Below are positions 1-37,356 of a DNA stretch of 64,000 nucleotides, piece by piece. Below the pieces are notes generated by a model, which searched no databases, was not told the DNA's origin, and saw only the letters and a program-made list of their open reading frames with translations. A program made the translations under genes and the position numbers. How positions within the stretch are numbered: position 1 is the first letter of the stretch; the number at the start of each line of letters is the position of its first letter. The stretch is from positions 1,422,022-1,486,021 of the forward strand of contig CM041202.1 of NCBI GenBank assembly GCA_023078555.1, given 5' to 3'. The DNA comes from Ulva prolifera (taxonomy: Eukaryota > Chlorophyta > Ulvophyceae > Ulvales > Ulvaceae).

Positions 1-584
1 CAGAGTGTGTGGCGCTGCAGTCTTGCGGCCATGCATGCATGCGGAATCTCTCGTGTGACCACCCCTGACTGTACACGTGATAATCTGCTCCGTGAGGCAT
101 GCATGCGCAGCGAGATGCTTGTGTGCTCGTGTCAGTGGCTGCTTCTGTTGACTTGCTGCCCCTGTCGTTTGTGTCAGACGCTGTGGGGCATGCCGCATGC
201 GCATGACCGGGCAACCGGATGCCGTACGTGCTGAGGCCGTGGTGCCTGCTGTGGCGCTATATGGCGTGGCAGCGTGTGCATCTGCATTGCAACCGGCGGC
301 ATATGCATGCCGGGTGTGCATGTAGCGACTGGCCTCATGTGCGCCGCGGATCGCTGTACACCGTCTTGCGCTGTGTCCATCCGGGTGCAGCCCATCCACT
401 AGTAGCAACAATCCTGCATTGCGAAGCTTCTGTATATGTGCTGTCAATCGGTATGTGCCGCAACGCGGAGACAGCGTTCGTGATGATGTGATCGCATGTT
501 GCAGCAGCGCGTGGCAGGGCATGTGTGTATTGCTGCAGCTTGCCGCTGTGATGCCTGACAGCGAGAGCACTGCTGTCCCCCCAG

Positions 585-3500
585 GTGACATGACCTGCGA
601 GGGCAAGCCAGGCAAAGCCCTCGAAGAGGACGGGAGCTGCCCGGAGGCCGAGTGCTTCAACGACGCACACCTCGGCCAAGTGGTACTGGCCAGCGGGTCG
701 CTAACGACCGGAGCGCACTGGACCGTCGGTATCAAGCAGTGCCTGCAGAAGGTGTGCTGCTCTTGCCCCTCAAAAACAATCTACTGCTGGGCCTGCCCCC
801 GCCTCTTGGCTCCCGATTTCCTGAGGGTCAAGGTCCTGGCACACGGGGCTGTAATCATGCATATGAAAATACCATGTGCCACTTACTATAGTATGACATC
901 TTATTTTTCATGTTTGTTCATGTTTCCATGTATTGTTATTACATATGATATGTGACAACGTGGCATGCGGACCCCCGTACGCAGGCTGGGCTTCAGAGCA
1001 AATGCGCATGCATGTGCCGGGATCCTCTCAGCACCGATTTATTGATTTTTGTTTCCAGCAGAGCTCCGAGGTGATTGTTATACGGGCTTGTTCAGCACAA
1101 GGTTTACTCGTATCTGACTTGTGTTCTTAGGCCGCACCATTTCATATGCTTTGCAGCAACGTTCAGGACAGACCGACGCGTGTGTATGAGAATGTGCCTT
1201 GCACGTACCAAGGAGGAAGAGGCGCACTCCTGTAGCATCCCCCTGCCATGCTCGACCCGCCTGCAGATTTATTCGTATGTGCAACACTGTCGCCACAACA
1301 CTGCCACAACACTGCACATGTACGGCCGTGCCACACCGACTGTCATCTAGATGCGCTTGTGTCCTGCGACGCCTGGAAACAACTGAGTCGCCGCGAGCTC
1401 GCTGCCGCTCGATCGCCACCAGCACCGGCGTGCGCAGCGTTGTGGTCGTGACTTGACACCCCATGCGGCTGCCACAGCATCACTGATGTGGCACATCATC
1501 GTGGTGCCATCGTAATCAGGACTGGCGCGCTCGTGCAGGCCGGCAAGATCGGAACAATCACCTGGGCCTACGCGGAGGATGGCATGTGCCCCGATACAGT
1601 GGACTGCGCAGGCAACAAGGCCAAGAAGGTGGAATTCCACGATACATTCATCGAAGACCTGACAGTCCCGGCTGGCATGTGCTCTGGCACGCCCATCTGC
1701 GTGTACCTGCGCGACGGCGCCTTCCGCAAGGGCGACCACGGCACCCCCCAGCCCGGGATCCCCGAGATGTGCTACTCCAAAGACGAGCACCTCTGCAAGA
1801 CGTGCGGGCCGTATTTGGTCACGGTGCGCCGTACCTCCAGCGTTTGCCGCGTGCATTGAATAAGCATCGATAGCAAATTGTCCCAACCCGTCCTGCCCTG
1901 GAATGTGGACTGCTTCAAGCAAGACGTTCTCGTGCAATCTGCGGCATCACATATCGCAGTGAATGCCACCAGTGAGGAAAGTACTTGACAGTGTACATGG
2001 ATAGCAACGTCAATTCCTGGCTGGTTGTGTATGTAGCCGTATAGTTGCGCCAGCATCAGCTCGGGTGTGCAGCTATGTGCATTAGGGCCTGGCTTCGGTG
2101 TGGCCTTCAAGGAAATATAACAGAATTCTGTTCTATGAGCCCTTGCTTTATTAAGATCTTGCCCAGTGTCTCCATGAGGACATTGATTCCCTTTGCCAGT
2201 GGCAAGGCTGAAAAGAGAAGCGGCGTGCTTAAGTCGGCATCAAACTTCCGCACCGTGAGCCCGATGACGGTGGTCCTATGGAAGATGTTTGTTGCTGCAG
2301 CCCAAGCTTCCAAAGGATGCGGAGTGCACACCTGAGGCCACCATAGCTGCTCATGAATGCGCAACGGGCACATGTGCCAAGGATGGCGAGTGCTCTGTGC
2401 TGCTCCTGGATGATAACCTATGCGATACGACCTGCGAGGAGTGCAAGTTCAACACCATGGGCGTGGCACAGTGCATACGTGCGTTCTCAATGCGGCGCTG
2501 GCCCTGTGCTACCAAGTTTTTTACTGCTGTGGTGGTGTCCGTGCTGTTGTCGCTGGCCTCGCTGTGTTGAGCTGCGCGCACCTCGCAGAGATGTTTCGGG
2601 TGAAACAGGCCCTGGTTCTGGCAGATGCATGATACATCTGCTCATGGTAGGGCATTTCACATTCAACCTTCAGCTCGCTTCTTGTAAGACGTGACTTGTG
2701 TGCAGCCAAGGCCGACGCCCCCCCTACCTGTGACGATCCGGTCTGCACTGAGCCGGAGTGCGATACGACCTGCGAGGAGTGCAAGTTCAACACCATGGGC
2801 GTGGCACAGTGCATACGTGCGTTCTCAATGCGGCGCTGGCCCTGTGCTACCAATTTTTTAACTGCTGTGGTGGTGTCCGTGCTGTTGTCGCTGGCCTCGC
2901 TGTGTTGAGCTGCGCGCACCTCGCAGAGATGTTTCGGGTGAAACAGGCCCTGGTTCTGGCTGATGCATGATACATCTGCTCATGGTAGGGCATTTCACAT
3001 TCAACCTTCAGCTCGCTTCTTGTAAGACGTGACTTGTGTGCAGCCAAGGCCGACGCCCCCCCCTACCTGTGACGATCCGGTCTGCACTGAGCCGGAGTGC
3101 GATACGACCTGCGAGGAGTGCAAGTTCAACACCATGGGCGTGGCACAGTGCATACGTGCGTTCTCAATGCGGCGCTGGCCCTGTGCTACCAATTTTTTTA
3201 CTGCTGTGGTGGTGTCCGTGCTGTTTGTCGCTGGCCTCGCTGTGTTGAGCTGCGCGCACCTCGCAGAGATGTTTCGGGTGAAACAGGCCCTGGTTCTGGC
3301 TGATGCATGATACATCTGCTCATGGTAGGGCATTTCACATTCAACCTTCAGCTCGCTTCTTGTGAGACGTGACTTGTGTGCAGCGAAGGCCGACGCCCCC
3401 CCTACCTGTGACGATCCGGTCTGCACTGAGCCGGAGTGCGATACGACCTGCGAGGAGTGCAAGTTCAACATCATGGGCGTGGCACAGTGCATACGTGCGT

Positions 3501-5961
3501 TCTCAATGCGGCGCTGGCCCTGTGCTACCAAGTTTTTTACTGCTGTGGTGGTGTCCGTGCTGTTGTCGCTGGCCTCGCTGTGTTGAGCTGCGCGCACCTC
3601 GCAGAGATGTTTCGGGTGAAACAGGCCCTGGTTCTGGCTGATGCATGATACATCTGCTCATGGTAGGGCATTTCACATTCAACCTTCAGCTCGCTTCTTG
3701 TGAGACGTGACTTGTGTGCAGCCAAGGCCGACGCCCCCCCTACCTGTGACGATCCGGTCTGCACTGAGCCGGAGTGCGATACGACCTGCGAGGAGTGCAA
3801 GTTCAACACCATGGGCGTGGCACAGTGCATACGTGCGTTCTCAATGCGGCGCTGGCCCTGTGCTACCAATTTTTTTACTGCTGTGGTGGTGTCCGTGCTG
3901 TTGTCGCTGGCCTCGCTGTGCATGAACATGTCTATGTTGAGCAACACTGAGCAACTGCGGTGTTTCAGGCCGTTTGTGGCCCCATGCTTGACCATACCCT
4001 CACACCCTGCTCATATCCGTCCACAGTACAAGAGCTTTCAGCAGTGCTGTATCTCACAGATGCAAGGGGTGTGTGCAGCTAAGCCAGACGCGCCGCTGAG
4101 CTGCAAAGACGGACCAATATGCAACCCACCATGCCAGGGCTGCACGACTTGTCGGCTCAATGGCGAAGACTTGGTGTGCATGGGTGTGGCTCACGCACTT
4201 AACCCTGATTCATCATGACTTGCGTCCTTACCGCAACTTTGCAAACTCTGCATTTGCAGCAGCAGCCATGCGCGTGCACACCCTCTCACGCACACCCACT
4301 GGTACACATGTGTGTCTGTCATGTGTGTCTGTGAGAAGTTGCTGTGTAGTCCAGTGCACTGTGTGCATGGCATGCATGTGCATGCATAGGTCTGATTAGG
4401 TCTGTGCAGAGAGTCATGGCAGTTGGGTATTTTATTGCATATAGGTAGACTGTAGCAGGTGAACACTATCGTGTTCACTGAGCTCCCGCTGTCATGACAG
4501 TGTCTCATGAGGACCAAGTTACAGAGGCAGGTAGCACCGCAGAAGACGTACACACACATGTCCGTGTCTTTGTGTGTGCTTTCAGCGTTAGGCAGCTGCC
4601 ACATTGAGCAAGCATATGTGTGGCAGAAAGGCATTCCTCTCCTTTGCTATCAGTGCACAGCTAGAGTCGGCTTTATACATGTAGCTTGTACACTTTGGAA
4701 TTGCAGGGTCAGGCACTGCTAGCAATCTAATCTTTCATGCCATCATTTGCCAATACCAGTGTGCCATGCTGGTCAAAGCTGTTTTCTGTGTGCAGACGAT
4801 GATCCCATGACTTATGATATGGTGTGCTACAAGTGCGGATTGAGCATCAACTGTGCGCTCAAGGCAGATGCTATGAAGGTCGACATTGGGAGTATCCAAA
4901 CCGCGTTCGATTCGCAATGTTTACCCAACAGCGCACAGGGGAATCAGGATCAGATATTTTCATGCGCCCAACAGCGCTGTGAAGGGACTCCTGCCATTTA
5001 CACAACAGATTGCTTCCCTTACTCGGGCCCTCCTGGCATGCTCCGTGCGCCACCCCTCTCGTGCCTCTCAGGGGCAGGTCCCCACAGAATCTTTACTGTG
5101 CTACATGCATCTGACAGAGATGCACACCTATCGTCCTGTTCACATTTATGGCCATGCCTCACAAGGCGTCTTGGCCTGGCCACAAGACGATATACACTGC
5201 GCTGAGCAGACTTTGTATGAAGGGTGTCAGCCCTTGAACCCGACATACCCTGCTCCGTGCTTGCAGAATAGACCGTGTTCATGACGTATTGCCACAACTT
5301 CTTAATGAAAGACTCTTTATCTGATCGGATCAGATTTTGATGGTCGGGAAGAACAGCTGGAATGCTTGGGTTGTTCGATTTCTTCTTTGCTGAATTCTGC
5401 TGTCGTGTGCAGAAGGCGACTGTCCGTGCAGCAGTAGCAGAATCTCCAACTTTGCCGAATACACGGTATGATCATATCGATATCTCTGCCCCGCAGCATC
5501 TGATTAATCTGAATGTCTTCATTTCTGTAATTGTGGTGATAGAAACGCGAGGGGCTATGCGGCAAAGACGAGCCACTTGCAATTGCCATTATTGCTTCCA
5601 TTGCCTTTATTGCTTTCATACAAACAAAACTGATGTTGATTGAAGCACTACTAGTAGTGACCAGTTCGAGTGCACTGGAGTACTCCTGCCTTGCTCTACC
5701 CCTACCAGTGACACTGGAAGTGTATTGCTCGCTATCCTGGACGGTTTCAGTGGATGAGACACTCCATGTTTCTTGTGTGTACAGGTCGTCGTGAGTGGTG
5801 GGACTGACTGCCCTGCCACGTTGGACATCACTGATTGTACAGAAGCGGACAAGTGTGATGCAGAAAGCAACCCACCCTGTTCTATAGGTTCTGAAAACAC
5901 TGACTCCACTGATGACTGCATTGTCCCTGCGCCTGGTACCTGTGACGCCACCATGTCATGA
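585..5961 (+). CDS. Secreted cysteine-rich modular protein, copy 1 (5' part outside window)
   Basis: This is the 3' part of the gene described in full at 13293-20548. Exons read here: 585-751, 1539-1823, 2301-2478, four module exons (2706-2816, 3044-3155, 3384-3494, 3722-3832), 4079-4183, one starting at 4796 with unresolved end, 5413-5465 and 5785-5961 (stop TGA). Splice phases agree from exon to exon except at the unresolved 4796 exon. The second module exon is 112 bp instead of 111 because its C run has 8 instead of 7 bases. This shifts the frame, so this copy is either damaged or carries a homopolymer sequencing error. The signal-peptide exon would lie to the left of the window. Function unknown. 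Confidence 0.6.
2420..3920 (+). repeat. 338-bp tandem sub-repeat, 5 copies (unit 1)
   Basis: Five near-identical ~338-bp copies start at about 2420, 2758, 3097, 3436 and 3774. Each carries the end or whole of one 111-bp exon plus its intron (donor gtgcgt, acceptor gtgtgcag). The last copy diverges after 3920, where the other copies read ttgagc. Confidence 0.93.
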
Positions 5962-6727
5962 CAGCTGACAAATCCTAGTGTTGATGATGTGGTCTGAGGT
6001 CAGAGAGGCATTGATGTGGACTGTGTTGTGTCTCTGCGCCATTGTATATGTCCAGATTGCAGTGACCTTCGAAGAGTACATGTGTTGTTGTGCTGGCTCT
6101 ATATGCCTTCGTGGAGAATGATGCTGGGTGCACTCTACTTGGGTCCCCGACTCACCATTTCTAATTTGGGTCGTACATGCTTCAGCACATAGTATTGTGT
6201 GACTTGATCCACAACCGACATCAAACCGCATGTAACCCACAACAAGCAGAGACACAATTGCGACGTGTTAGATCAGGCTGCAACAATCATATATCATATA
6301 AGAGAAATCTGTATTCTGACTCCGCGGGCAGACCGCCACACATCATGGCAGACATGCGTATGGTACAGTGCCGTCTACCCTATCCGCCTAAAGTTGCACG
6401 ACTGGTTTCTGTTGTTGCCTATGGCCGCAAGTTCAGCAGCCTGGGTTTGGTGTGAAGGCTTAAATAACCCCCAAAATTCGCCAGATGAATCAAGCCCGAA
6501 ATCACAAGCTTAAGGGTTCTTTGAGCCTTTAATCTGGGGGCGGGTCAGGGTTTTATGTTGAGGTTTTTTTCATATTTATTTTTGAAGTGTGCGCCGCTGT
6601 TGCACGCGTGATTGCGGGCACAAATCAGCTCACGTAGCACCAGAACACCAGCAAGCAAATGTATACGGCTTGTGGCTGCACATGACAAGGCGCAATGATA
6701 CATGCAGCTTGCTGAAGTGTGTGTGTG

Positions 6728-6795
6728 TGTTACAAGGACAAAGCAAGCGAGGCAGGTAGCACCGCAAGCAAGAAGCAGGGGAAACGCACACCACG
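6728..6795 (+). repeat. Dispersed ~65-bp repeat
   Basis: This stretch (ttacaaggacaaagcaagc, then ggcaggtagcaccgc at 6751-6765, ending cgcacac) recurs at high identity on the minus strand at 41809-41875, inside an intron. Its 15-base core also occurs at 4526-4540 and 51051-51065. Copies at 21315-21382 and 36239-36306 are those of the tandem units. It looks like a short interspersed element; no promoter box was identified. Confidence 0.6.
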
Positions 6796-7055
6796 CAGCA
6801 AGCTTGCTGAAGTGCATCATACTCCAATCATACCGAGGATTTAAAAATAATGTTGCGCTGTCGATGTGCCATCGGTCTGCTGTTCCTGTTCTTCTTGGCT
6901 TTAGTTTGCATATACCTTTAGAGTCTACTGTGCTAGCATTCTGTATGATATTTGCGGGAGCAGAATTGTCATCAATATTAGGAGCAGCAGCTCCCTTTGC
7001 TACGTTTGGGCTTTGAAATTCAGCTACGCTTATGCACAAAGCAAGTAGTACATAC

Positions 7056-7793
7056 CAGGGTTGGGTCGCCCCCGATCCCCCGACGTCGGGATTTGTCGGT
7101 TCGGGCTCGATAAATCGGGATGTTTTGGGCAAATCCCGACAACGAGTGTTCATCTTGGGGATGTTGCCAACCTGCAAGACTTGGGCGAGGAAAAGCCCTT
7201 CAAATACCAGGAATCCCACTTCATTGACAACAGAAAACATTAAAGTGCTACATTTAATGCATCGCGTTTGTAGTGATTAATCATGATGACAACAGAAGAA
7301 ATCCATCCAGTTGCTGCACTTTTGTGGCCGTGATCAGCTTTATGGAAGGCTGATGACACTGAAGTTCACTGCATCCGCCGCCTGAACCAACATCAAGCTT
7401 TTTCTGATATCCAAGGCAACTTGTGAACGCGATACTGCTTTCTCTCGTTGCTCACGAGCCAAGTGAGTGCGTTCGCCTGCGCGAGCTCGTCACGAGAACA
7501 CGGACAGTACTTAGATACGCCGCTACATCTCGAGCTTTGCGCTCACACATTCGATTGTAACAGAATGAGCTGTTTGATATTGCGCAATCATGCATCGCTT
7601 GGTACCTGTGGTAATGTGCCGGTCCATGGCGAGCTTTAGCCAAACATAGGAACGTCCACAGAACGAATTTTTCGACAAGAAGATGTGCCACAATCCGCAA
7701 ACATACTTCTCTATCCAATGAAACCTTTAAATGCGTCAACGGACGTCGTTTTAGCTAGAAGCCAGCCAGATCGGGGGATTAATCGGGATTTTT
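7056..7793. mobile_element. hAT-like element, right end missing
   Basis: It starts CAGGG directly after GTACATAC (7048-7055), the same left end as the complete copy at 36567. It breaks off after the T run at 7793, where the next tandem unit begins. No transposase was recognised in its 738 bp. Confidence 0.75.
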
Positions 7794-8195
7794 AAAAGCA
7801 TAAACCTGGGATCAAAAGCATAAACCTGGGATCACAGCCTGGAGGCTTTGAGGTGCATGGTGTATTAATATTGCTCCCTGACTGCTGCTGTGGTGTGCAG
7901 AGGGCGACTGCCCATGCAGCGGCCAAGGCATCTCCAACTTTGCCGGATACTTGGTGCGTTGCTCTACCTCTGTGTGGTATGAAGTATTGCTTCTCCTCGT
8001 TGACATGTGGTACACAACATTCAAGTTGGCGAGGCGGGCACTGCCACACTCGCGACAATCAAGTCATAAACACACCCAACAGCTCGCTCCAACGTTAACA
8101 CACCCGCGGCGTTGTGACATCATACCCGATCCACATGTGCATTTATGACTGAAGCCGCCATGCGCTGCAGCTGGTGCAGACATTCACACAAACAC

Positions 8196-8219
8196 ATGTA
8201 GACTGTGCACAGTCTACAT
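8196..8219. other. 24-bp perfect palindrome
   Basis: The 12 bases from 8196 (ATGTAGACTGTG) are followed directly by their reverse complement, with no spacer. The copy in unit 3 is at 22783-22806. Confidence 0.9.
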
Positions 8220-8662
8220 TTCAGCTTGGCCGTGTTGACATGTACATGGCCCTCCGGAAACTTGAACACTGTGCTTGACGAACGTGGCCGGCCATTGATG
8301 AGCATGTGCTTGATTACAGTAGAGTACAGAAGGACGGGAGGAGACACATTGTGCATGTGCAGGTTACTGTTGCTGGTGGGGTCGGAGTGTGCCGCCACCG
8401 TTGCTTGCGACACGACGCTGCCGAAGTGTGACAAAGGTGGAGGCTGCTCCTTGGGTGCCCCGAACACCTGCTCAGTCTTTGAGGGCTGTTCAGCCAAGGT
8501 GCCCCTCGGCTAGAGTTGATGTTCGTCTGACAGCCATGCTCCGCACTGGACCGATGAGATGAATCGTTAGCCACTGGCGTGAACATTCACCTGGGGATCT
8601 GGCATATGGTATCATTTCTTTGGAACTTGAAGGTGCATGTACATGTTGAGGCCTCCGGGTAT

Positions 8663-8684
8663 CTAGGGACCAGCTGGTCCCTAG
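8663..8684. other. 22-bp perfect palindrome
   Basis: CTAGGGACCAG is followed directly by its reverse complement. The copy in unit 3 is at 23249-23270. Confidence 0.9.
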
Positions 8685-9231
8685 GGCAGGACATGTCAAT
8701 GGTCGTCTGAGCATAGCGGGCAGTTGTGCTGCTGTTGTGATTCAGAGAATGTGCCGCTCCATCCATGGGTCATGGAGCTGCAGCCCATTCACAATTGTGG
8801 CTCGTGGTCGTTGTGCAAGAGCCTATACCGCCCTGTCGTAGGCAGCGCAGGCTTGGGTCCAACCCGAGTGTTTGTCACCTTCAAGCTGGGCAGGTGCAAC
8901 AGGTGCCTCTTCTGCACCGTTGGTGTGAGCGAAGGGGCAGCAGCTTGGATTGCTTTCTTTTTTGGGCTGCTGTGTGAGCAGCTGCGGTTGGTCAGCTCGC
9001 GTGCGCATGCATGTATTGTGTTTTGATGCATTGTTCTGAGTGGTCGTGATGTATCCACATCTCTGTAGGCAATGGTGCTCTCCCTTGTGATGTGTGACAC
9101 TTGTAAGCATCCGCAGATTGATGGAGGATTGGCTGTGAACATGGAAAACGAAGTTGTCACCGGTTTGCTGTTGCCACATTCCTACCTACCTTGTCATCAT
9201 GAACAATGTGGCAAATGCGGCATCTCCTGAA

Positions 9232-12200
9232 TGGTATACATTTGCATATATCGACTTGGAACACCACTGTGTGTATTAATTTAATTTCAGCCTTCTACCA
9301 ATGGCATGTCAAATGGAGGACGCATCCGTCGCAACTGACACCCACTGGCACTCGTTCTCAATGCTGTGGACTCCACCCCTCCTTACGTGCCACCTCCAAC
9401 TTGTCTGTCGTGACTGACTGTCGTGATCAAGTGTCGTGATTGACTGTTGACAACGCCCAGCACTATCGAGTACAAAATGCAGCAGCCAATCTGCCCAGGC
9501 AGACCCACAGAGAGCAAGCACTAGTCTCGCCAGACCCAAAAAGACATCTCTTAACAACCGATAATACTTCTGTGCGTGCCAGCTCCTAGGGACGCGGTCA
9601 ATGGCGTCCCAGGGAAGCAAACATGGCAGAGCATGCGCTGTACCGCCCGCAGCAACACTACAGACCATTTATAACGCATCAGGATGCAGTAGAGGCATAT
9701 TAAGGGTGTTCTGGGGCCATCAGGCATGCTTCCGGTACCGTTGGGCGCGTTTTCGTGCTCGCTGGGCACAATGGGGCTTTTTGCCCAGCCATGCACGCGG
9801 ATTTCGGGCCAAAGGTCGACTTCGCCTAGCGACTTAATACAAAGATACAGCAGCATTAAGGAAGTTGCTGCGAGTATATAGACGTTCCCAGCGCTATCTG
9901 GAGCTTCCTGAGGTGCTCGCGGTTCAATTGGACGTGCAGGAGGCCTGAGTGCCGACCAGTGTTCGAATTTTCAACTGACCGTCATTATGAGTTGTCGGAG
10001 GGCTAGCCGACAGACGAACCCCCCTTTCCCGTGCTTGCAAGCACGAGATGGCCTGTTCCAGATCGCGCATGCTATTTGGCAAGCATGTATTTTGCATGTG
10101 ATGGCAGTTGCTTTAAAGCAACCTTGAAATTTCACGTTGGCGCCGCTGAAGGGATGAAGCGGTTCACATATGCATGGGCTTTCAGAGCTGGCCCGACAAT
10201 GAAGAATGGCACGGTTGTGTGTAGGTTATGTCGTCAGATATGCAGCCCGTGGTGGTTTCCAAGTTCGATGCAGAATTTGCGATGTGCCTGGGATCTTGGA
10301 GAGCCTGCAATCAAGGATGTTGCGGCTCACGGCATTATAGCGCCAGGCGCCACTAGGGGGTCATGCACTCCCGCTACGAGGTGGTCCCAGTGAGGGCGCG
10401 CGAAATCGCGTTTGGGCGGGAAAAGCTCAGCGAATGCCACCGTTTGGGGAGAACCGCCATTATTCGCCAAAAGGGGGGCCTGGGGTGGGGAGAGTCCCCA
10501 CAGCCGAGATCGCTCACGCAGAGTCCCCAAACATTGATCACAATATTCGAAGTTGTCCCCAATTACGAAAATTCGGTCGTTTTGATGCGCGCCCACACTG
10601 GGACCACTTCGTAGCGGGAGTGCATGACCCCCTGCGCCACTGTCTCGCGAATTGCCAGACCGCATTCACGAGGCGCCGAGTCGCGCAAGTCGTGCAATAA
10701 CTCCCATTGCGACCCATTGTTGAATATGCGAAAACTCATCTACTGACGATGACTCAGGTTACCGTTCATTCCGCACGGCCCAGTACAGTCTGTCGTGCAT
10801 GCGCAGCGGTGCAGGACTCTGCGTGCCTTGCTCTTCGTAGTCCAGTACTTACTTAGCTGAGGCCCTTTGCAGTAATTCAATATTCTCGTGGCTTGCGTGG
10901 CAATGGGCGTTCCGGCAGCTGAGGATGATCTGATCACGTTGTTGCGTTCCTGCTCAGACCTAGAGTCCGGCTGTCGCTTTACGTACTGCTGAAAATTTTG
11001 CACCATGGCAATTCGTCTTCGGACGGGCTATTGCGCGAGGCGACATGCCGCTGCCACGTTCTCGCAGGTGCCATCTCAGCTAGGTACCTATTGATGACTT
11101 GATGACACTTACAGTGACCCTCTCGTGAAGTGGCGTTGGAAAAAGCACCAATGTGGAGACATTCAGTACGTCCATGGCTGCATTCAGGTGCTCATTGTCA
11201 GGGAATGTGGGGCCTCAGGCGCAGCGCTGGCAGAACATGTCGCAGAGCACCACATGCTGTCAACAGCAAACACTGAAACCCCATCTGTAGGTGGACATAC
11301 GACTTGATGACCTGTAGCTTTGGGCATCTGTTTCAGGAAGTCCTACTGGGCATTCGGAGCAAAGTCACCCACTGAGCAGATCCTGACCCCCAATTTGTTG
11401 CGAACTGTCACCAGTACTCCATTGAAGCCACTGCCCTGTCTGGAAGCAAGGCTGATAGACGTTGTCCACATAGCTAGCTTTCCACATGCTGGGTCGGAGT
11501 ATCCCATGCTGGCATGTCCACCTGACAGCATCATACAAGGCTATGCTGGCCCAACTGCTCTTAGCATCGCCTGAAGCTGAAGTGCAATGGCCTGCTGAGA
11601 GGTACATTCCATCTACTTCCATCATATCTAATAAGCTCTATGATCACTGCTGCCGCCCACTGCCTGGAGACCTGTCGGGGCCCCACTGCCAAGTTGAGAG
11701 CAGCATCGGTCTCTGGTGCTTCAGAATCATGCTCCTTCTGCAGATTCAGGAACCTGGCGGGCATCTGATGGACAATCTGTTAAGCCCGATGCCCTGGCTT
11801 GCGCCATATAGGGCAATCCTGGCATCCCGGCTCATATCATCATGGGAACTGCCTGCTCCACAGCTCTGTAAGGGTTGTAGGCATGTGCTCCTCATGGTTC
11901 CATACATTGGGCACCCCACAAGGTGCCAAGAACATGCTCCAAAGCGGAGTGTCCGTAGCAGGAGTGGTTCTTCATGTGCGCTGCCTGCCCCTCGTGCAAT
12001 GCCAGAGCCTATGTGAAGCATAGACCGGAGCGTGTGGCGTTGCAGTTCTTGTAGCTGTGCAGCCGTGATGCCCCGCTAGAGCTGGGCGCAGGCCTGAGTG
12101 AGCATGTAGGGCACCTTCAAGCCATGGTGCACACCTGTGGCCATTACACACTGCCTGCCCCACATGCACCAATGGTGAGTCGCCATTCAGCACAGCTCCG

Positions 12201-13292
12201 CATGGACAGTTGCAACGCTGACTGCAAGTAAGCGCGTTCGGCATAAGCAATTTAGACCCATAAGTATACTTGATCGACCGTCGCGTCCGCGCATCTCGAA
12301 CCCAGTCCAATATAGCATGTTCATCTTCTGCCAGGTGGCAGCTTCATTGCCGATGCATGCGCAGGCCACGTACATGCATGGGGTTTGGATTTGTGATGCA
12401 TCCGAGCATCACGGTGCATTACTGTTGCTCTTGCGACGCGTGGGCGATCAGTGCTCTGCAAGTTGGGCAGTACGTAATGACGCTTAAAGACGATCGGCGT
12501 TGCAGCAACTTGTCGGCCAAGCACAACGCCTCCTGCCACAGTACATATATAGTCGCGACGCACCACGATGACATCAAGCTAGACCGAGAATTCCATCCGT
12601 CGGTGCTGCAGACACAGCTATAGCTTGGCTTCGGACATATATAGTCATCTTTCCGTTAATTCTGTGAACTGCTTAGGCTTGCGACATCGCCAGTAGCGTT
12701 CCGGAGTCCTTCTTGCCGGTGTGCTTCCCTCATTGTTCGCCACAGGCGATGTTGCATCGTCCCAGCGACCATGGTACTTGAGAACTACATGATTGGGCGA
12801 GTCAGCTGGTGCTGGAAATATGAGAGGTCGAGATCCATCGTGCATGTGTAACTGGATCTGGCATCTCACGACGTGGCGACCACCGTGAACATTCACGCAC
12901 ATGCATGCGTATGCACCCGCCTTCATACTGTCAGCAGCTGCTTCGCGCTGTACGACCTTGTGCCTCGATGAACCTCTACCGCGAAATCAGTCCGATTGGC
13001 CCTGTCAAATACATGACAATATATGATGCATCTTAATCTGATGGCGCCGTAATCTGAAAACCTACTATCATGGCAGCATAGCTCGGCATTGTGACAGCCG
13101 AGATCGCAGTGCTGCACTTGCTATAACAAAACGGAGACCGTGTTCCTTTCATAGCATGCATGTGTCTGGGTGGGATTAAATCTCGGGAAGACAACCTTGT
13201 GTTTTTTTGTGTCTTTGCCTGTACCTGTACGCGTACGTGTTCACTCTTTGGTATGAAACGTCTTGTGGCCCCACAGCTTGAGTCGTCCAGCC
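9232..13292. other. Intergenic stretch of unit 2, no confident gene
   Basis: About 4 kb between the paralogue remnant and the signal-peptide exon. Open frames on both strands (for example 11486-12016 plus) show no recognisable domain, Cys module or consistent splice pattern. It holds the 279-bp element at 10355-10633, a 14-bp palindrome GTGCTTGCAAGCAC near 10033, and nothing else I can support. Confidence 0.5.
10355..10633. mobile_element. 279-bp inverted-repeat element (hAT-type MITE), unit 2
   Basis: The first ~47 bases (AGGGGGTCATGCAC...) recur inverted at the right end with two mismatches. The direct repeat GCGCCACT flanks it exactly at 10347-10354 and 10634-10641. An 8-bp target duplication is typical of the hAT superfamily. 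The interior has no coding capacity, so it is non-autonomous. Confidence 0.9.
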
Positions 13293-26800: not shown

Positions 26801-27878
26801 ACGCTGACTGCAAGTAAGCGCGTTCGGCATAAGCAATTTAGACCCATAAGTATACTTGATCGACCGTCGCGTCCGCGCATCTCGAACCCAGTCCAATATA
26901 GCATGTTCATCTTCTGCCAGGTGGCAGCTTCATTGCCGATGCATGCGCAGGCCACGTACATGCATGGGGTTTGGATTTGTGATGCATCCGAGCATCACGG
27001 TGCATTACTGTTGCTCTTGCGACGCGTGGGCGATCAGTGCTCTGCAAGTTGGGCAGTACGTAATGACGCTTAAAGACGATCGGCGTTGCAGCAACTTGTC
27101 GGCCAAGCACAACGCCTCCTGCCACAGTACATATATAGTCGCGACGCACCACGATGACATCAAGCTAGACCGAGAATTCCATCCGTCGGTGCTGCAGACA
27201 CAGCTATAGCTTGGCTTCGGACATATATAGTCATCTTTCCGTTAATTCTGTGAACTGCTTAGGCTTGCGACATCGCCAGTAGCGTTCCGGAGTCCTTCTT
27301 GCCGGTGTGCTTCCCTCATTGTTCGCCACAGGCGATGTTGCATCGTCCCAGCGACCATGGTACTTGAGAACTACATGATTGGGCGAGTCAGCTGGTGCTG
27401 GAAATATGAGAGGTCGAGATCCATCGTGCATGTGTAACTGGATCTGGCATCTCACGACGTGGCGACCACCGTGAACATTCACGCACATGCATGCGTATGC
27501 ACCCGCCTTCATACTGTCAGCAGCTGCTTCGCGCTGTACGACCTTGTGCCTCGATGAACCTCTACCGCGAAATCAGTCCGATTGGCCCTGTCAAATACAT
27601 GACAATATATGATGCATCTTAATCTGATGGCGCCGTAATCTGAAAACCTACTATCATGGCAGCATAGCTCGGCATTGTGACAGCCGAGATCGCAGTGCTG
27701 CACTTGCTATAACAAAACGGAGACCGTGTTCCTTTCATAGCATGCATGTGTCTGGGTGGGATTAAATCTCGGGAAGACAACCTTGTGTTTTTTTGTGTCT
27801 TTGCCTGTACCTGTACGCGTACGTGTTCACTCTTTGGTATGAAACGTCTTGTGGCCCCACAGCTTGAGTCATCCAGCC
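23818..27878. other. Intergenic stretch of unit 3, no confident gene
   Basis: Equivalent of 9232-13292 and essentially identical. It holds the 279-bp element at 24941-25219 and no gene I can support. Confidence 0.5.
24941..25219. mobile_element. 279-bp inverted-repeat element (hAT-type MITE), unit 3
   Basis: Identical in layout to 10355-10633, including the flanking GCGCCACT repeats at 24933-24940 and 25220-25227. It was carried by the tandem duplication rather than inserted independently. Confidence 0.9.
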
Positions 27879-30800
27879 ATGGCTCGACCCTCACTGTCTG
27901 CAACATGTAGGCAGCTTGGCTGGAAGATGGTGTCTCGAGTGACATCTGCGGCCTCGGTGCTAGTGGTCGTCATCGGCACCCTCTGCGCCGTTGGTGCGGA
28001 TCCGCTGCCTACGTCCACCCTTTTGCCCTGCGCCCTCCCTCTGTCGTTGGCATGTCCAACCCCTGCCCACATGTTGCGCGGAATGCATGGCCATATGGAT
28101 GCTGTAGATCTACCACTGGCAGTATACTATAGTGCTGCCTTGTGCACAGTTGATCTGCCACATGCATGCAAGTGGGGCAACCCACGTACGAGCTGTCTCA
28201 GCACTACTGCGAGTAGCAGCACTGTGTACTCGGGCCCACGAGTTGCACAGATCCATCACTGCTGTGGCCCCCACATGCACGTGCATGTTTTCCACACGTC
28301 TCCACACAGAGGAACAACTTAAATGAGCTCAAGCCGTTGCACGGCAGAAGACAACAGTAGACTTTGTACTACTAGTGCTATGTGTGTGAGACAACATGAT
28401 GGTTCCGGATGATTGGGCCTGCCAGCAGCAGCCTGCCACCGCTGCGTCCTTGCAGTCGCAGGCGTGAGGCCTACATCGCCAGCTCGCCAGTGTCAATCGA
28501 TGCCTTGATGTTGTAATTGTGAGCACTGCTGCAGGTGACGCGTCGGCCGCGTTTGCCTCGCGCTCCCACGACTACCCGAGCGCCTGGAGAGACCTGCCCA
28601 GGCCTGACCCCCACTACAAGCCGCACCCCGACCACGAGCGCCCCTGCGGCGAGAAGGTCTGCCACCCGAACGGCGTGTGCGAGTGGTCAGGCTGCGGGGA
28701 CTGCGAGACGTGCAAGTGGGGCAAGTGCGTGGAGAAGGAGTGCCCCCCATGCCACACGTGCGACGGCGGGGAGTGCACACCCGACTGCGACGAAGGTGAG
28801 TGCGTGCGTGACCGCTGGCACGGGTACACGTGCAAGCCGGAGACTCCGGATGAGAAGGAGTGCAAGCACGACTGGCACTGCCACAAGCCCGGCGAGAAGT
28901 GCGTGGACGGCGTGTGTGTCGGTGCGCCCCTGCTGCGTGCTGCGTGCTGCGCTCCACGGTCGTGTCTGAATCCATGATCAAGAGGTGATCGACCATGTGT
29001 GCAACCGGGGTTGGGGGTTCTGCAGCGTGCCCAATGCATTGAGTGCGCCGGCCGGCTGCCCTCCGCCAGAGTTGGGTCGCTCAGCAGCAATTCCAGGGCT
29101 GCCATCCAGAAAGTGGACCTGCATATTCGGAATGGTTCTATGTAATTGGGCCCGATGACCCAACACTGCCCTCCGCAGAGTGTGTGGCGCTGCAGTCTTG
29201 CGGCCATGCATGCATGCGGAATCTCTCGTGTGACCACCCCTGACTGTACACGTGATAATCTGCTCCGTGAGGCATGCATGCGCAGCGAGATGCTTGTGTG
29301 CTCGTGTCAGTGGCTGCTTCTGTTGACTTGCTGCCCCTGTCGTTTGTGTCAGACGCTGTGGGGCATGCCGCATGCGCATGACCGGGCAACCGGATGCCGT
29401 ACGTGCTGAGGCCGTGGTGCCTGCTGTGGCGCTATATGGCGTGGCAGCGTGTGCATCTGCATTGCAACCGGCGGCATATGCATGCCGGGTGTGCATGTAG
29501 CGACTGGCCTCATGTGCGCCGCGGATCGCTGTACACCGTCTTGCGCTGTGTCCATCCGGGTGCAGCCCATCCACTAGTAGCAACAATCCTGCATTGCGAA
29601 GCTTCTGTATATGTGCTGTCAATCGGTATGTGCCGCAACGCGGAGACAGCGTTCGTGATGATGTGATCGCATGTTGCAGCAGCGCGTGGCAGGGCATGTG
29701 TGTATTGCTGCAGCTTGCCGCTGTGATGCCTGACAGCGAGAGCACTGCTGTCCCCCCAGGTGACATGACCTGCGAGGGCAAGCCAGGCAAAGCCCTCGAA
29801 GAGGACGGGAGCTGCCCGGAGGCCGAGTGCTTCAACGACGCACACCTCGGCCAAGTGGTACTGGCCAGCGGGTCGCTAACGACCGGAGCGCACTGGACCG
29901 TCGGTATCAAGCAGTGCCTGCAGAAGGTGTGCTGCTCTTGCCCCTCAAAAACAATCTACTGCTGGGCCTGCCCCCGCCTCTTGGCTCCCGATTTCCTGAG
30001 GGTCAAGGTCCTGGCACACGGGGCTGTAATCATGCATATGAAAATACCATGTGCCACTTACTATAGTATGACATCTTATTTTTCATGTTTGTTCATGTTT
30101 CCATGTATTGTTATTACATATGATATGTGACAACGTGGCATGCGGACCCCCGTACGCAGGCTGGGCTTCAGAGCAAATGCGCATGCATGTGCCGGGATCC
30201 TCTCAGCACCGATTTATTGATTTTTGTTTCCAGCAGAGCTCCGAGGTGATTGTTATACGGGCTTGTTCAGCACAAGGTTTACTCGTATCTGACTTGTGTT
30301 CTTAGGCCGCACCATTTCATATGCTTTGCAGCAACGTTCAGGACAGACCGACGCGTGTGTATGAGAATGTGCCTTGCACGTACCAAGGAGGAAGAGGCGC
30401 ACTCCTGTAGCATCCCCCTGCCATGCTCGACCCGCCTGCAGATTTATTCGTATGTGCAACACTGTCGCCACAACACTGCCACAACACTGCACATGTACGG
30501 CCGTGCCACACCGACTGTCATCTAGATGCGCTTGTGTCCTGCGACGCCTGGAAACAACTGAGTCGCCGCGAGCTCGCTGCCGCTCGATCGCCACCAGCAC
30601 CGGCGTGCGCAGCGTTGTGGTCGTGACTTGACACCCCATGCGGCTGCCACAGCATCACTGATGTGGCACATCATCGTGGTGCCATCGTAATCAGGACTGG
30701 CGCGCTCGTGCAGGCCGGCAAGATCGGAACAATCACCTGGGCCTACGCGGAGGATGGCATGTGCCCCGATACAGTGGACTGCGCAGGCAACAAGGCCAAG

Positions 30801-33800
30801 AAGGTGGAATTCCACGATACATTCATCGAAGACCTGACAGTCCCGGCTGGCATGTGCTCTGGCACGCCCATCTGCGTGTACCTGCGCGACGGCGCCTTCC
30901 GCAAGGGCGACCACGGCACCCCCCAGCCCGGGATCCCCGAGATGTGCTACTCCAAAGACGAGCACCTCTGCAAGACGTGCGGGCCGTATTTGGTCACGGT
31001 GCGCCGTACCTCCAGCGTTTGCCGCGTGCATTGAATAAGCATCGATAGCAAATTGTCCCAACCCGTCCTGCCCTGGAATGTGGACTGCTTCAAGCAAGAC
31101 GTTCTCGTGCAATCTGCGGCATCACATATCGCAGTGAATGCCACCAGTGAGGAAAGTACTTGACAGTGTACATGGATAGCAACGTCAATTCCTGGCTGGT
31201 TGTGTATGTAGCCGTATAGTTGCGCCAGCATCAGCTCGGGTGTGCAGCTATGTGCATTAGGGCCTGGCTTCGGTGTGGCCTTCAAGGAAATATAACAGAA
31301 TTCTGTTCTATGAGCCCTTGCTTTATTAAGATCTTGCCCAGTGTCTCCATGAGGACATTGATTCCCTTTGCCAGTGGCAAGGCTGAAAAGAGAAGCGGCG
31401 TGCTTAAGTCGGCATCAAACTTCCGCACCGTGAGCCCGATGACGGTGGTCCTATGGAAGATGTTTGTTGCTGCAGCCCAAGCTTCCAAAGGATGCGGAGT
31501 GCACACCTGAGGCCACCATAGCTGCTCATGAATGCGCAACGGGCACATGTGCCAAGGATGGCGAGTGCTCTGTGCTGCTCCTGGATGATAACCTATGCGA
31601 TACGACCTGCGAGGAGTGCAAGTTCAACACCATGGGCGTGGCACAGTGCATACGTGCGTTCTCAATGCGGCGCTGGCCCTGTGCTACCAAGTTTTTTACT
31701 GCTGTGGTGGTGTCCGTGCTGTTGTCGCTGGCCTCGCTGTGTTGAGCTGCGCGCACCTCGCAGAGATGTTTCGGGTGAAACAGGCCCTGGTTCTGGCAGA
31801 TGCATGATACATCTGCTCATGGTACGGCATTTCTCATTCAACCTTCAGCTCGCTTCTTGTGAGACGTGACTTGTGTGCAGCCAAGGCCGACGCCCCCCCT
31901 ACCTGTGACGATCCGGTCTGCACTGAGCCGGAGTGCGATACGACCTGCGAGGAGTGCAAGTTCAACACCATGGGCGTGGCACAGTGCATACGTGCGTTCT
32001 CAATGCGGCGCTGGTCCTGTGCTACCAAGTTTTTAACTGCTGTGGTGGTGTCCGTGCTGTTGTCGCTGGCCTCGCTGTGTTGAGCTGCGCGCACCTCGCA
32101 GAGATGTTTCGGGTGAAACAGGCCCTGGTTCTGGCTGATGCATGATACATCTGCTCATGGTAGGGCATTTCACATTCAACCTTCAGCTCGCTTCTTGTAA
32201 GACGTGACTTGTGTGCAGCCAAGGCCGACGCCCCCCCTACCTGTGACGATCCGGTCTGCACTGAGCCGGAGTGCGATACGACCTGCGAGGAGTGCAAGTT
32301 CAACACCATGGGCGTGGCACAGTGCATACGTGCGTTCTCAATGCGGCGCTGGCCCTGTGCTACCAAGTTTTTTACTGCTGTGGTGGTGTCCGTGCTGTTG
32401 TCGCTGGCCTCGCTGTGTTGAGCTGCGCGCACCTCGCAGAGATGTTTCGGGTGAAACAGGCCCTGGTTCTGGCAGATGCATGATACATCTGCTCATGGTA
32501 GGGCATTTCACATTCAACCTTCAGCTCGCTTCTTGTAAGACGTGACTTGTGTGCAGCCAAGGCCGACGCCCCCCCTACCTGTGACGATCCGGTCTGCACT
32601 GAGCCGGAGTGCGATACGACCTGCGAGGAGTGCAAGTTCAACACCATGGGCGTGGCACAGTGCATACGTGCGTTCTCAATGCGGCGCTGGCCCTGTGCTA
32701 CCAATTTTTTTACTGCTGTGGTGGTGTCCGTGCTGTTGTCGCTGGCCTCGCTGTGTTGAGCTGCGCGCACCTCGCAGAGATGTTTCGGGTGAAACAGGCC
32801 CTGGTTCTGGCTGATGCATGATACATCTGCTCATGGTAGGGCATTTCACATTCAACCTTCAGCTCGCTTCTTGTGAGACGTGACTTGTGTGCAGCGAAGG
32901 CCGACGCCCCCCCTACCTGTGACGATCCGGTCTGCACTGAGCCGGAGTGCGATACGACCTGCGAGGAGTGCAAGTTCAACATCATGGGCGTGGCACAGTG
33001 CATACGTGCGTTCTCAATGCGGCGCTGGCCCTGTGCTACCAAGTTTTTTACTGCTGTGGTGGTGTCCGTGCTGTTGTCGCTGGCCTCGCTGTGTTGAGCT
33101 GCGCGCACCTCGCAGAGATGTTTCGGGTGAAACAGGCCCTGGTTCTGGCTGATGCATGATACATCTGCTCATGGTAGGGCATTTCACATTCAACCTTCAG
33201 CTCGCTTCTTGTGAGACGTGACTTGTGTGCAGCCAAGGCCGACGCCCCCCCTACCTGTGACGATCCGGTCTGCACTGAGCCGGAGTGCGATACGACCTGC
33301 GAGGAGTGCAAGTTCAACACCATGGGCGTGGCACAGTGCATACGTGCGTTCTCAATGCGGCGCTGGCCCTGTGCTACCAATTTTTTTACTGCTGTGGTGG
33401 TGTCCGTGCTGTTGTCGCTGGCCTCGCTGTGCATGAACATGTCTATGTTGAGCAACACTGAGCAACTGCGGTGTTTCAGGCCGTTTGTGGCCCCATGCTT
33501 GACCATACCCTCACACCCTGCTCATATCCGTCCACAGTACAAGAGCTTTCAGCAGTGCTGTATCTCACAGATGCAAGGGGTGTGTGCAGCTAAGCCAGAC
33601 GCGCCGCTGAGCTGCAAAGACGGACCAATATGCAACCCACCATGCCAGGGCTGCACGACTTGTCGGCTCAATGGCGAAGACTTGGTGTGCATGGGTGTGG
33701 CTCACGCACTTAACCCTGATTCATCATGACTTGCGTCCTTACCGCAACTTTGCAAACTCTGCATTTGCAGCAGCAGCCATGCGCGTGCACACCCTCTCAC

Positions 33801-35472
33801 GCACACCCACTGGTACACATGTGTGTCTGTCATGTGTGTCTGTGAGAAGTTGCTGTGTAGTCCAGTGCACTGTGTGCATGGCATGCATGTGCATGCATAG
33901 GTCTGATTAGGTCTGTGCAGAGAGTCATGGCAGTTGGGTATTTTATTGCATATAGGTAGACTGTAGCAGGTGAACACTATCGTGTTCACTGAGCTCCCGC
34001 TGTCATGACAGTGTCTCATGAGGACCAAGTTACAGAGGCAGGTAGCACCGCAGAAGACGTACACACACATGTCCGTGTCTTTGTGTGTGCTTTCAGCGTT
34101 AGGCAGCTGCCACATTGAGCAAGCATATGTGTGGCAGAAAGGCATTCCTCTCCTTTGCTATCAGTGCACAGCTAGAGTCGGCTTTATACATGTAGCTTGT
34201 ACACTTTGGAATTGCAGGGTCAGGCACTGCTAGCAATCTAATCTTTCATGCCATCATTTGCCAATACCAGTGTGCCATGCTGGTCAAAGCTGTTTTCTGT
34301 GTGCAGACGATGATCCCATGACTTATGATATGGTGTGCTACAAGTGCGGATTGAGCATCAACTGTGCGCTCAAGGCAGATGCTATGAAGGTCGACATTGG
34401 GAGTATCCAAACCGCGTTCGATTCGCAATGTTTACCCAACAGCGCACAGGGGAATCAGGATCAGATATTTTCATGCGCCCAACAGCGCTGTGAAGGGACT
34501 CCTGCCATTTACACAACAGATTGCTTCCCTTACTCGGGCCCTCCTGGCATGCTCCGTGCGCCACCCCTCTCGTGCCTCTCAGGGGCAGGTCCCCACAGAA
34601 TCTTTACTGTGCTACATGCATCTGACAGAGATGCACACCTATCGTCCTGTTCACATTTATGGCCATGCCTCACAAGGCGTCTTGGCCTGGCCACAAGACG
34701 ATATACACTGCGCTGAGCAGACTTTGTATGAAGGGTGTCAGCCCTTGAACCCGACATACCCTGCTCCGTGCTTGCAGAATAGACCGTGTTCATGACGTAT
34801 TGCCACAACTTCTTAATGAAAGACTCTTTATCTGATCGGATCAGATTTTGATGGTCGGGAAGAACAGCTGGAATGCTTGGGTTGTTCGATTTCTTCTTTG
34901 CTGAATTCTGCTGTCGTGTGCAGAAGGCGACTGTCCGTGCAGCAGTAGCAGAATCTCCAACTTTGCCGAATACACGGTATGATCATATCGATATCTCTGC
35001 CCCGCAGCATCTGATTAATCTGAATGTCTTCATTTCTGTAATTGTGGTGATAGAAACGCGAGGGGCTATGCGGCAAAGACGAGCCACTTGCAATTGCCAT
35101 TATTGCTTCCATTGCCTTTATTGCTTTCATACAAACAAAACTGATGTTGATTGAAGCACTACTAGTAGTGACCAGTTCGAGTGCACTGGAGTACTCCTGC
35201 CTTGCTCTACCCCTACCAGTGACACTGGAAGTGTATTGCTCGCTATCCTGGACGGTTTCAGTGGATGAGACACTCCATGTTTCTTGTGTGTACAGGTCGT
35301 CGTGAGTGGTGGGACTGACTGCCCTGCCACGTTGGACATCACTGATTGTACAGAAGCGGACAAGTGTGATGCAGAAAGCAACCCACCCTGTTCTATAGGT
35401 TCTGAAAACACTGACTCCACTGATGACTGCATTGTCCCTGCGCCTGGTACCTGTGACGCCACCATGTCATGA
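27879..35472 (+). CDS. Secreted cysteine-rich modular repeat protein, copy 3 (complete gene, extra module)
   Basis: Exons by comparison with copy 2: 27879-27993, 28535-28921, 29760-29926, 30714-30998, 31476-31653, five modules (31881-31991, 32219-32329, 32557-32667, 32895-33005, 33233-33343), 33590-33694, one from 34307 with unresolved end, 34924-34976, 35296-35472 (TGA). There is one module exon more than in copy 2. Because the exon is 111 bp and phase 1 to 1, the protein simply gains 37 residues and 6 Cys. The signal peptide and 18-Cys exon are intact. Sub-repeats near 31825-32040 carry private substitutions. No damage to the frame was seen. Function unknown; secretion and disulphide bonding are inferred. 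Confidence 0.7.
29071..29164. mobile_element. 94-bp foldback MITE in intron 2 (unit 3)
   Basis: Tandem-duplicated copy of the element at 14485-14578, in the same intron. Confidence 0.8.
31595..33431 (+). repeat. 338-bp tandem sub-repeat, 6 copies (unit 3)
   Basis: Copies start at about 31595, 31933, 32271, 32609, 32947 and 33285, one more than in units 1 and 2. The third copy (32271) repeats features of the first, such as ggcagatgcatg after it, so the gain probably came from unequal exchange or replication slippage covering two neighbouring copies. Confidence 0.93.
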
Positions 35473-36566
35473 CAGCTGACAAATCCTAGTGTTGATGATG
35501 TGGTCTGAGGTCAGAGAGGCATTGATGTGGACTGTGTTGTGTCTCTGCGCCATTGTATATGTCCAGATTGCAGTGACCTTCGAAGAGTACATGTGTTGTT
35601 GTGCTGGCTCTATATGCCTTCGTGGAGAATGATGCTGGGTGCACTCTACTTGGGTCCCCGACTCACCATTTCTAATTTGGGTCGTACATGCTTCAGCACA
35701 TAGTATTGTGTGACTTGATCCACAACCGACATCAAACCGCATGTAACCCACAACAAGCAGAGACACAATTGCGACGTGTTAGATCAGGCTGCAACGATCA
35801 TATATCATATAAGAGAAATCTGTATTCTGACTCCGCGGGCAGACCGCCACACATCATGGCAGACATGCGTATGGTACAGTGCCGTCTACCCTATCCGCCT
35901 AAAGTTGCACGACTGGTTTCTGTTGTTGCCTATGGCCGCAAGTTCAGCAGCCTGGGTTTGGTGTGAAGGCTTAAATAACCCCCAAAATTCGCCAGATGAA
36001 TCAAGCCCGAAATCACAAGCTTAAGGGTTCTTTGAGCCTTTAATCTGGGGGCGGGTCAGGGTTTTATGTTGAGGTTTTTTTCATATTTATTTTTGAAGTG
36101 TGCGCCGCTGTTGCACGCGTGATTGCGGGCACAAATCAGCTCACGTAGCACCAGAACACCAGCAAGCAAATGTATACGGCTTGTGGCTGCACATGACAAG
36201 GCGCAATGATACATGCAGCTTGCTGAAGTGTGTGTGTGTGTTACAAGGACAAAGCAAGCGAGGCAGGTAGCACCGCAAGCAAGAAGCAGGGGAAACGCAC
36301 ACCACGCAGCAAGCTTGCTGAAGTGCATCATACTCCAATCATACCGAGGATTTAAAAATAATGTTGCGCTGTCGATGTGCCATCGGTCTGCTGTTCCTGT
36401 TCTTCTTGGCTTTAGTTTGCATATACCTTTAGAGTCTACTGTGCTAGCATTCTGTATGATATTTGCGGGAGCAGAATTGTCATCAATATTAGGAGCAGCA
36501 GCTCCCTGTGCTACGTTTGGGCTTTGAAATTCAGCTACGCTTATGCACAAAGCAAGTAGTACATAC
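35473..36566. other. 3' flank of the cysteine-rich gene, unit 3
   Basis: Equivalent to 20549-21642. No supported gene. The dispersed ~65-bp repeat lies at about 36239-36306. Confidence 0.5.
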
Positions 36567-37356
36567 CAGGGTTGGGTCGCCCCCGATCCCCCGACGTCGG
36601 GATTTGTCGGTTCGGGCTCGATAAATCGGGATGTTTTGGGCAAATCCCGACAACGAGTGTTCATCTTGGGGATGTTGCCAACCTGCAAGACTTGGGCGAG
36701 GAAAAGCCCTTCAAATACCAGGAATCCCACTTCATTGACAACAGAAAACATTAAAGTGCTACATTTAATGCATCGCGTTTGTAGTGATTAATCATGATGA
36801 CAACAGAAGAAATCCATCCAGTTGCTGCACTTTTGTGGCCGTGATCAGCTTTATGGAAGGCTGATGACACTGAAGTTCACTGCATCCGCCGCCTGAACCA
36901 ACATCAAGCTTTTTCTGATATCCAAGGCAACTTGTGAACGCGATACTGCTTTCTCTCGTTGCTCACGAGCCAAGTGAGTGCGTTCGCCTGCGCGAGCTCG
37001 TCACGAGAACACGGACAGTACTTAGATACGCCGCTACATCTCGAGCTTTGCGCTCACACATTCGATTGTAACAGAATGAGCTGTTTGATATTGCGCAATC
37101 ATGCATCGCTTGGTACCTGTGGTAATGTGCCGGTCCATGGCGAGCTTTAGCCAAACATAGGAACGTCCACAGAACGAATTTTTCGACAAGAAGATGTGCC
37201 ACAATCCGCAAACATACTTCTCTATCCAATGAAACCTTTAAATGCGTCAACGGACGTCGTTTTAGCTAGAAGCCAGCCAGATCGGGGGATTAATCGGGAT
37301 TTTTTGAATCGGGCCCGATTAATCGGGAATTTTCCCAATCGGGCCCGATTGCCCTG
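36567..37356. mobile_element. Complete 790-bp hAT-like element
   Basis: Begins CAGGG and ends CCCTG, with imperfect inverted ends rich in ATCGGG/CCCGAT and GATTAATCGGG motifs. The 8-bp direct repeat GTACATAC flanks it exactly at 36559-36566 and 37357-37364. CAGGG ends, subterminal repeats and an 8-bp target duplication are hAT hallmarks. No transposase domain is visible, so it is taken as non-autonomous. It spans the right edge of the tandem array (37304). Confidence 0.88.

Follow-up and report, generated by a model that had tools for sequence, protein, structure and literature searches.

In the 64,000-nt window of Ulva prolifera DNA analysed here (C7:1422022-1486021, C7 being contig CM041202.1; the genome searched was the 88.9-Mb assembly of 44 contigs), we identified part of a tandem array carrying four copies of a gene for a putatively secreted, disulfide-rich protein. 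With a probability of about 0.68, the gene belongs to a so far undescribed family of modular ulvophyte extracellular proteins, in which a tract of small cysteine modules would serve the cell wall or matrix as a stiff, disulfide-stapled spacer whose length can be adjusted. Its exon structure, the repeats, the constraint on its exons, the parallel expansion of one exon in a paralogue and the recombination between units are demonstrated below from sequence comparison and predicted gene models. Secretion, suggested by a signal-peptide-like start, and disulfide bonding are probable, and the spacer role and wall location are proposed by analogy.

Self-comparison of the window matched 1-18507 to 14590-33093 at 99.89% identity, 2421-7793 to 31934-37304 at 99.81%, and 17010-22380 to 31934-37304 at 99.87%; repeat identity on this kilobase scale far exceeds chance. 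By reading upstream of the window, four tandem units were found on C7, namely unit A (C7:1401079-1415226), unit B (C7:1415227-1429814), unit C and unit D (C7:1444402-~1459325). In window coordinates, which are used below for all features of the array (+ strand), the 3′ part of unit B occupies 1..7793, its first ~6.8 kb preceding the window, unit C is complete at 7794..22380 (14,587 bp), and unit D, the last in the array, spans 22381..37304 and is followed by unique sequence. Because the window opens within unit B, about two and a half units had been visible to the first-pass annotation; the ~14.6-kb tandem unit that it proposed was borne out by the self-comparison and by the four units in the assembly, and the end of the repeat, which it set at 37304, agreed with both the self-comparison and the comparison of junctions.

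Taking unit C as the reference, unit B is 99.96% identical with 3 substitutions and unit D differs by 5 substitutions. B, C and D are further set apart by three single-base indels, which change the length of a C, a G and a T run. Unit A matches unit C at 98.2% over most of its length and at 90.6% over its initial ~2.1 kb, the two stretches being separated by a length difference. Substitutions counted in 500-bp bins placed the first ~8 kb of unit A at ~3% from unit C, with differences dense up to 16018 and only four substitutions in the last ~6.4 kb. Within the gene, the A-C differences stop at 16018, except for one at 17248, and a homogenisation boundary sits inside the gene, between its diverged and near-identical parts.

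An identical junction, joining right end to left end, was found at all three unit borders (in the window at 22340..22420, right-end sequence fused to AAAAGCATAAACCTGGGATC (twice)), and the outer flanks of the array are unique. On its left, the array starts within the penultimate intron of a neighbouring paralogue, P3; therefore, units B to D open with copies of the last two exons of P3, and unit A with P3's own. Such stray pairs, copies of the P3 3′ end, are located at the start of unit C (7901..8513; exons 7901-7953 and 8363-8513), where one extra G is present compared with units B and D, and at the start of unit D (22488..23099; exons 22488-22540 and 22950-23099). Exon 11 of the unit C gene reads in frame into the unit D pair, for an alternative product of 694 residues, and the pair might thus provide that gene with an alternative C-terminus. 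An earlier idea, that this second 3′ pair was the gene's own alternative end, was replaced by its identification as a copy of P3's last exons, which may still be used as such an end. A dispersed ~80-bp repeat was also observed near the 3′ end of each unit (21298-21390 in unit C), whose C7 copies are at most 95% identical and lie on both strands.

Exons were assigned from open frames, GT-AG borders and agreement of phase, together with conservation against paralogues. The predicted unit C gene (13341..20548) comprises 13 exons (13341-13407, 13949-14335, 15174-15340, 16128-16412, 16890-17067, 17295-17405, 17633-17743, 17971-18081, 18309-18419, 18666-18770, 19383-19631, 20000-20052 and 20372-20548) and encodes 703 aa with 83 Cys, all 12 introns being GT-AG with matching phases. 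The statement of the first-pass annotation that most exons begin or end in phase 1 held, since 9 of the 12 introns are in phase 1; phase 1-1 borders are found in exons 2, 10 and 11 and in the four 111-bp module exons. A GC-AG intron following exon 11 had been considered and was dropped, as a GT donor is present 9 bases on in the window and in paralogues P2, P3 and P4.

The protein would be laid out as an N-terminal domain common to the family (exons 3-4, 15174..16412, exon 4 being the family signature), a tract of 6-Cys modules, and a C-terminal family domain (CYKCG..., exons 11-13, 19383..20548). Exon 1 (13341..13407) is signal-peptide-like: in a hydropathy scan of the unit C protein, the eight most hydrophobic 19-residue windows start at residues 4-12, and this N-terminal stretch is the single strongly hydrophobic one, so that the signal peptide is putative and assigned by hydropathy. 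Exon 2 (13949..14335, phase 1-1) encodes 18 Cys, counted by eye on the translation, and a genome search with it matched the four units and, at a weak level, Cys-rich open reading frames (ORFs) on another contig, C1, but nothing else. The 3′ half of exon 5 (16890..17067) is module-like, the four module exons follow with a 338-bp period (17295..18419), and exon 10 (18666..18770) is a diverged module copy. The unit D gene (27927..35472) has 14 exons, including five module exons (31881, 32219, 32557, 32895 and 33233), and encodes 740 aa with 89 Cys. From exon 3 onward the unit B gene lies at 585..5961, its exons 1-2 preceding the window. In unit A, all exons from 2 on are present at full length with their borders, and the exon 1 match falls two bases short owing to a pair of synonymous changes close to the exon end. 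Within intron 2, a stretch of ~100 bp (14480-14583) has five regional copies at 77-84% identity and also turns up on both strands in a translated search; it is probably a dispersed repeat.

The inner repeat was examined with Tandem Repeats Finder, which reported a period of 338 with 4.4, 4.4 and 5.4 copies in the window's units, and the splice model gave 4, 4, 4 and 5 phase 1-1 exons of 111 bp in units A, B, C and D, respectively, each encoding a 37-residue, 6-Cys module (C-x4-C-x4-C-x3-C-x2-C-x9-C). The inner 338-bp repeat with a symmetric 111-bp exon, as first described, was thereby borne out. Exon 10 and the tail of exon 5 can also be aligned to the module, all six Cys included; therefore, each gene holds about six or seven module copies. 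Among 11 aligned modules from the array and paralogues P1, P3 and P4, flanking module-like exons included, the six Cys are the only invariant residues. The further claim that added copies lengthen the protein without breaking the frame stood for the module copies in the splice model, except for the second module exon of unit B (3044-3155), which in the assembly is 112 bp long and out of frame owing to an additional base in a C run. Apart from single-site changes, haplotypes 1, 2, 3 and 4 of the 338-bp unit occur in this positional order in A, B and C, which indicates that the inner expansion preceded the outer. In unit D the order is 1*, 2*, 1, 3, 4, as would be expected if unequal crossing-over had added copies, one of which was then lost. 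Fast copy-number evolution, also proposed at first, is supported by the 4/4/4/5 modules among near-identical units and by eight in a paralogue.

In the genome, exon 4 matched 14 places, comprising the four units, nine other places on C7 and one partial copy on C3, a number that is a lower bound; alignment A1 took in 10 of the 14, the others being the partial one on C3 and three identical copies from the array. Exon 11 matched all four units of the array, another four loci on C7 and two places on C1; alignment A2 held five of these ten, leaving out three array copies, P1, which has a stop, and one C1 place. By sequence, the array gene is one branch of a family with at least 14 loci, and exons 3, 4, 10 and 11 are kept in paralogues P1-P4. 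Among the paralogues, P1 (C7:1.294-1.3025 Mb) lies over 100 kb upstream and contains eight copies of the 111-bp module exon, with borders as in the array and a spacing of 358 bp once and 381 bp six times. When one P1 intron was compared with one array intron, matches extended over only 14 and 11 bases, and the intron comparison points to independent amplification of the same module exon in P1 and in the array gene. P1 repeat units 3, 5 and 7 are mutually identical, as are units 4 and 6; therefore, the recent duplicating unit there is a pair. Tandem duplications were likewise found in P2 (530 bp at 97.9%) and P3 (226 bp at 70.8%), so that three of the four paralogues examined are internally duplicated, while in P4 none was found at the threshold used. 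Exon 11 of P1 (C7:1301575-1301796) contains an in-frame TAG and lacks the GT donor present in P2, P3 and P4, and P1 may therefore be decaying. P3 also holds a run of ~2.2 kb (C7:1396.6-1398.8 kb) that reads CVCVCV in its forward frames and is mostly (GT)n.

Elsewhere, three copies of one family member (C7:6419409, C7:6498774 and C3:12377848) share 99.3-99.9% identity in the compared stretches, a fourth copy at C7:0.929 Mb reaching about 95%. Contig ends are about 21 kb away from the copies at C7:6.499 Mb and C3:12.378 Mb, and such near-identical copies near the ends of C7 and C3 suggest recent subtelomeric copying.

To evaluate constraint, units A and C were compared over exons 1-3, where 4 of 621 sites differ, and over introns 1-3, where 58 of 2166 differ (Fisher p 0.001); all four exon differences are synonymous. 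Over the whole gene, 4 of 2103 exon sites and 59 of 5077 intron sites differ, the homogenised 3′ part adding little information. In five paralogue pairs tried, none including the array gene, the ratio of nonsynonymous to synonymous rates (dN/dS) for exon 4 was about 0.12-0.25. Judged from these substitution patterns, the exons of the gene are under constraint.

The history that best accounts for these observations would begin with multiplication in place of the 37-residue module exon, which is easy because its borders are phase 1-1. Subsequently, the penultimate intron of the neighbouring paralogue would have been joined to sequence downstream of the gene, producing the 14.6-kb tandem duplication, in which the last two exons of the neighbour were included; the units would then have been multiplied and homogenised by unequal crossing-over or gene conversion, and unit D would have gained a fifth module. 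This growth mechanism is well supported. A more tentative reading goes further: module number might set an adjustable molecular length, and with one module exon independently multiplied in two paralogues (4-5 and 8 copies) and entire genes amplified and homogenised as well, the length and dose of a wall protein might change within populations, as happens with yeast flocculin genes. The stray pairs would give each gene two possible C-termini. We regard this as a possibility rather than an expectation.

A link to the wall was sought on contig C1. The interval C1:11084001-11430000, with its three loci L034, L035 and L036, holds long ORFs with Cys modules of the CDDGNKCT type, and L034 and L035 also contain long Pro-rich repeats; the ORFs look like hydroxyproline-rich wall glycoproteins, and they gave no Pfam match. 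Among 201 ORFs of these loci, the exon 11 profile matched a frame overlapping the long Pro-rich, Cys-rich ORF of L034 with an E-value (E) of 1e-10, with no match in 20 x 201 shuffled ORFs and none in the other two C1 loci read. The same locus had been reached at E 1.3e-4 by the single-sequence whole-genome search with exon 11. This match supports, without proving, an extracellular role. For the L036 ORF, 14 protein matches among the best 8000 candidates scored were judged to be linker or low-complexity matches from their domains, names and short coverage, and the one examined, P0006, was unrelated.

Searches outside the genome reached few relatives. The exon 4 alignment, the only query to reach any, found five homologues among 370 candidates, of which one is 93% identical to the array exon, one 99% to P4, one 93% to P1 and one 48-59% to all ten aligned sequences. 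The fifth and only named one, UM118_0001 of Ulva mutabilis, resembles the family in the exon 4 domain, with 57-69% over 48-49 residues to nine C7 paralogue sequences and 43% over 54 residues to exon 4 of the array gene, but is known only as a short gene model of 125 aa. On these homologues, Ulva or a near ulvophyte relative would be the most likely host. A 626-residue spliced form had no homologue at E ≤ 0.001 among 3942 candidates. Pfam gave no match above the curated cut-off in 13 sequences (array, paralogues and C1) or in 10 members of A1, two zinc-finger matches at E about 1 falling below it, NCBIfam gave none for 4 sequences, and no sequence match was obtained in PDB. That the family had not been recognised at first reading thus accords with Pfam, NCBIfam and PDB sequence searches, all without a match. 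In the excerpts of the literature on Ulva genomes, walls and exon duplication, no description of the family was found, which is weak evidence of absence.

Several points weigh against an undescribed extracellular family with a spacer tract. The gene models are built on sequence alone, the unit B gene is frameshifted as assembled, and the run-length indels among B, C and D may be read error or may be real. Homogenisation of the 3′ part of the gene limits the A-C exon test to the 5′ part. The C1 link consists of one domain match in one of three loci, this locus having been chosen because of the weaker whole-genome match there, and the exon 2 matches to C1 ORFs are weak, so that shared Cys richness could inflate them. 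Moreover, the AlphaFold2 model of exon 4, made from 10 sequences, had a mean predicted local distance difference test (pLDDT) score of 40.4 and thus offers no fold supporting a role.

Known systems resemble the array protein in part. Pherophorins and related hydroxyproline-rich glycoproteins of volvocine algae form secreted, Cys-containing matrix families with many paralogues, and in pherophorins a central Pro-rich rod separates two globular domains. Pro-rich relatives are present here too, on C1, where the ORFs of L034 and L035 have long Pro runs, but the array protein lacks a Pro-rich rod (Pro accounts for 64 of its 703 residues, and inspection by eye showed no long run). The pherophorin domain PF12499 had no hmmscan match in array, paralogue or C1 sequences, and a genome search with it had no match either, but its control was silent, so that absence is not shown. 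Animal extracellular proteins with granulin, EGF or LDL-receptor modules have grown by tandem addition of phase 1-1 exons and, as reported for progranulin, consist of chained Cys-rich modules; in contrast to all three, the array module is unrelated in sequence, with only its six Cys invariant and no Pfam module match. Chlamydomonas MST1, according to the excerpted report (PMC11015965), is a secreted algal protein with a long disulfide-rich tract (growth-factor-receptor-type Cys-rich domain), Ig-like domains and a Pro-rich helix; the tract is the likeness, whereas the Ig-like domains and the Pro-rich helix have no visible counterpart in the array protein. A phmmer search of PDB sequences with a 589-residue form with fewer modules gave no match at E up to 1, the presence of the MST1 chain there being unchecked.

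Among other explanations, the proteins might be secreted factors of defence or recognition, directed at bacteria, grazers or non-self gametes and selected for diversity and dosage, instead of structural wall proteins. Fast copy-number change, duplication at several levels and disulfide-rich secreted modules are typical of defence and recognition genes, which counts in its favour. Nevertheless, the module copies are almost identical and all four A-C exon changes are synonymous, and therefore no sign of diversifying selection is seen; the low exon 4 dN/dS in the five paralogue pairs also argues against it, and Ulva partita mating-type marker families were not found on C7 (orthology to the locus genes unchecked). 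We thus consider a defence or recognition role unlikely. A mating-type locus as such was rejected, RWP-RK being on C2 and C3 and PRA1 on C5 and C6, again with orthology unchecked.

It is rather improbable that the outer array arose in part during assembly, with misassembled long reads or haplotype joining turning one or two real units into more. The near identity of B, C and D, with 3 and 5 substitutions against C and three run-length indels, would fit such an error; however, unit A stands ~3% from C over its first ~8 kb and adjoins a paralogue, unit D is distinguished by its fifth module and its unique right flank, and the three junctions are identical. Falsely joined haplotypes would presumably leave no junction of this kind at unit ends.

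Metal tolerance commonly arises through gene amplification, and metallothioneins are small, CXC-rich proteins, CXC being their usual mark, without a signal peptide. That the array proteins bind metal in this way, with unit copy number raising tolerance, is highly improbable: 83 Cys in 703 residues and the metallothioneins reported in Ulva compressa, in an excerpt of PMC9266709, would fit, but the start is signal-peptide-like, CXC is depleted (1 observed against 9.7 ± 2.7 in shuffles) and the module's six conserved Cys form no CXC.

Under the preferred reading, a modular extracellular protein family, the array is of interest for both wall biology and gene evolution. Ulva matrix glycoproteins were rated 'essentially uncharacterized' in an excerpt of a macroalgal matrix review (PMC8307928), and a later review, also in excerpt (PMC10762512), mentions arabinogalactan proteins found in Ulva and extensin and collagen genes reported in Ulva genomes. 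The family would add further concrete matrix candidates, with at least 14 loci, one of them a recent array, and clear exon borders. In addition, the array keeps a record of its two-level expansion in the ordered haplotypes, the duplication junction, the homogenisation boundary and the independent parallel expansion, and so presents a clean case, outside animals, of how modular extracellular proteins lengthen.

Beyond the array, the window also contains parts of three other genes, namely an aminotransferase class I/II gene (40341-41390, − strand), a gene for the chloroplast-envelope protein Tic110 (47000-47863, E 1.4e-45) and an ankyrin-repeat gene (56669-57658, − strand).

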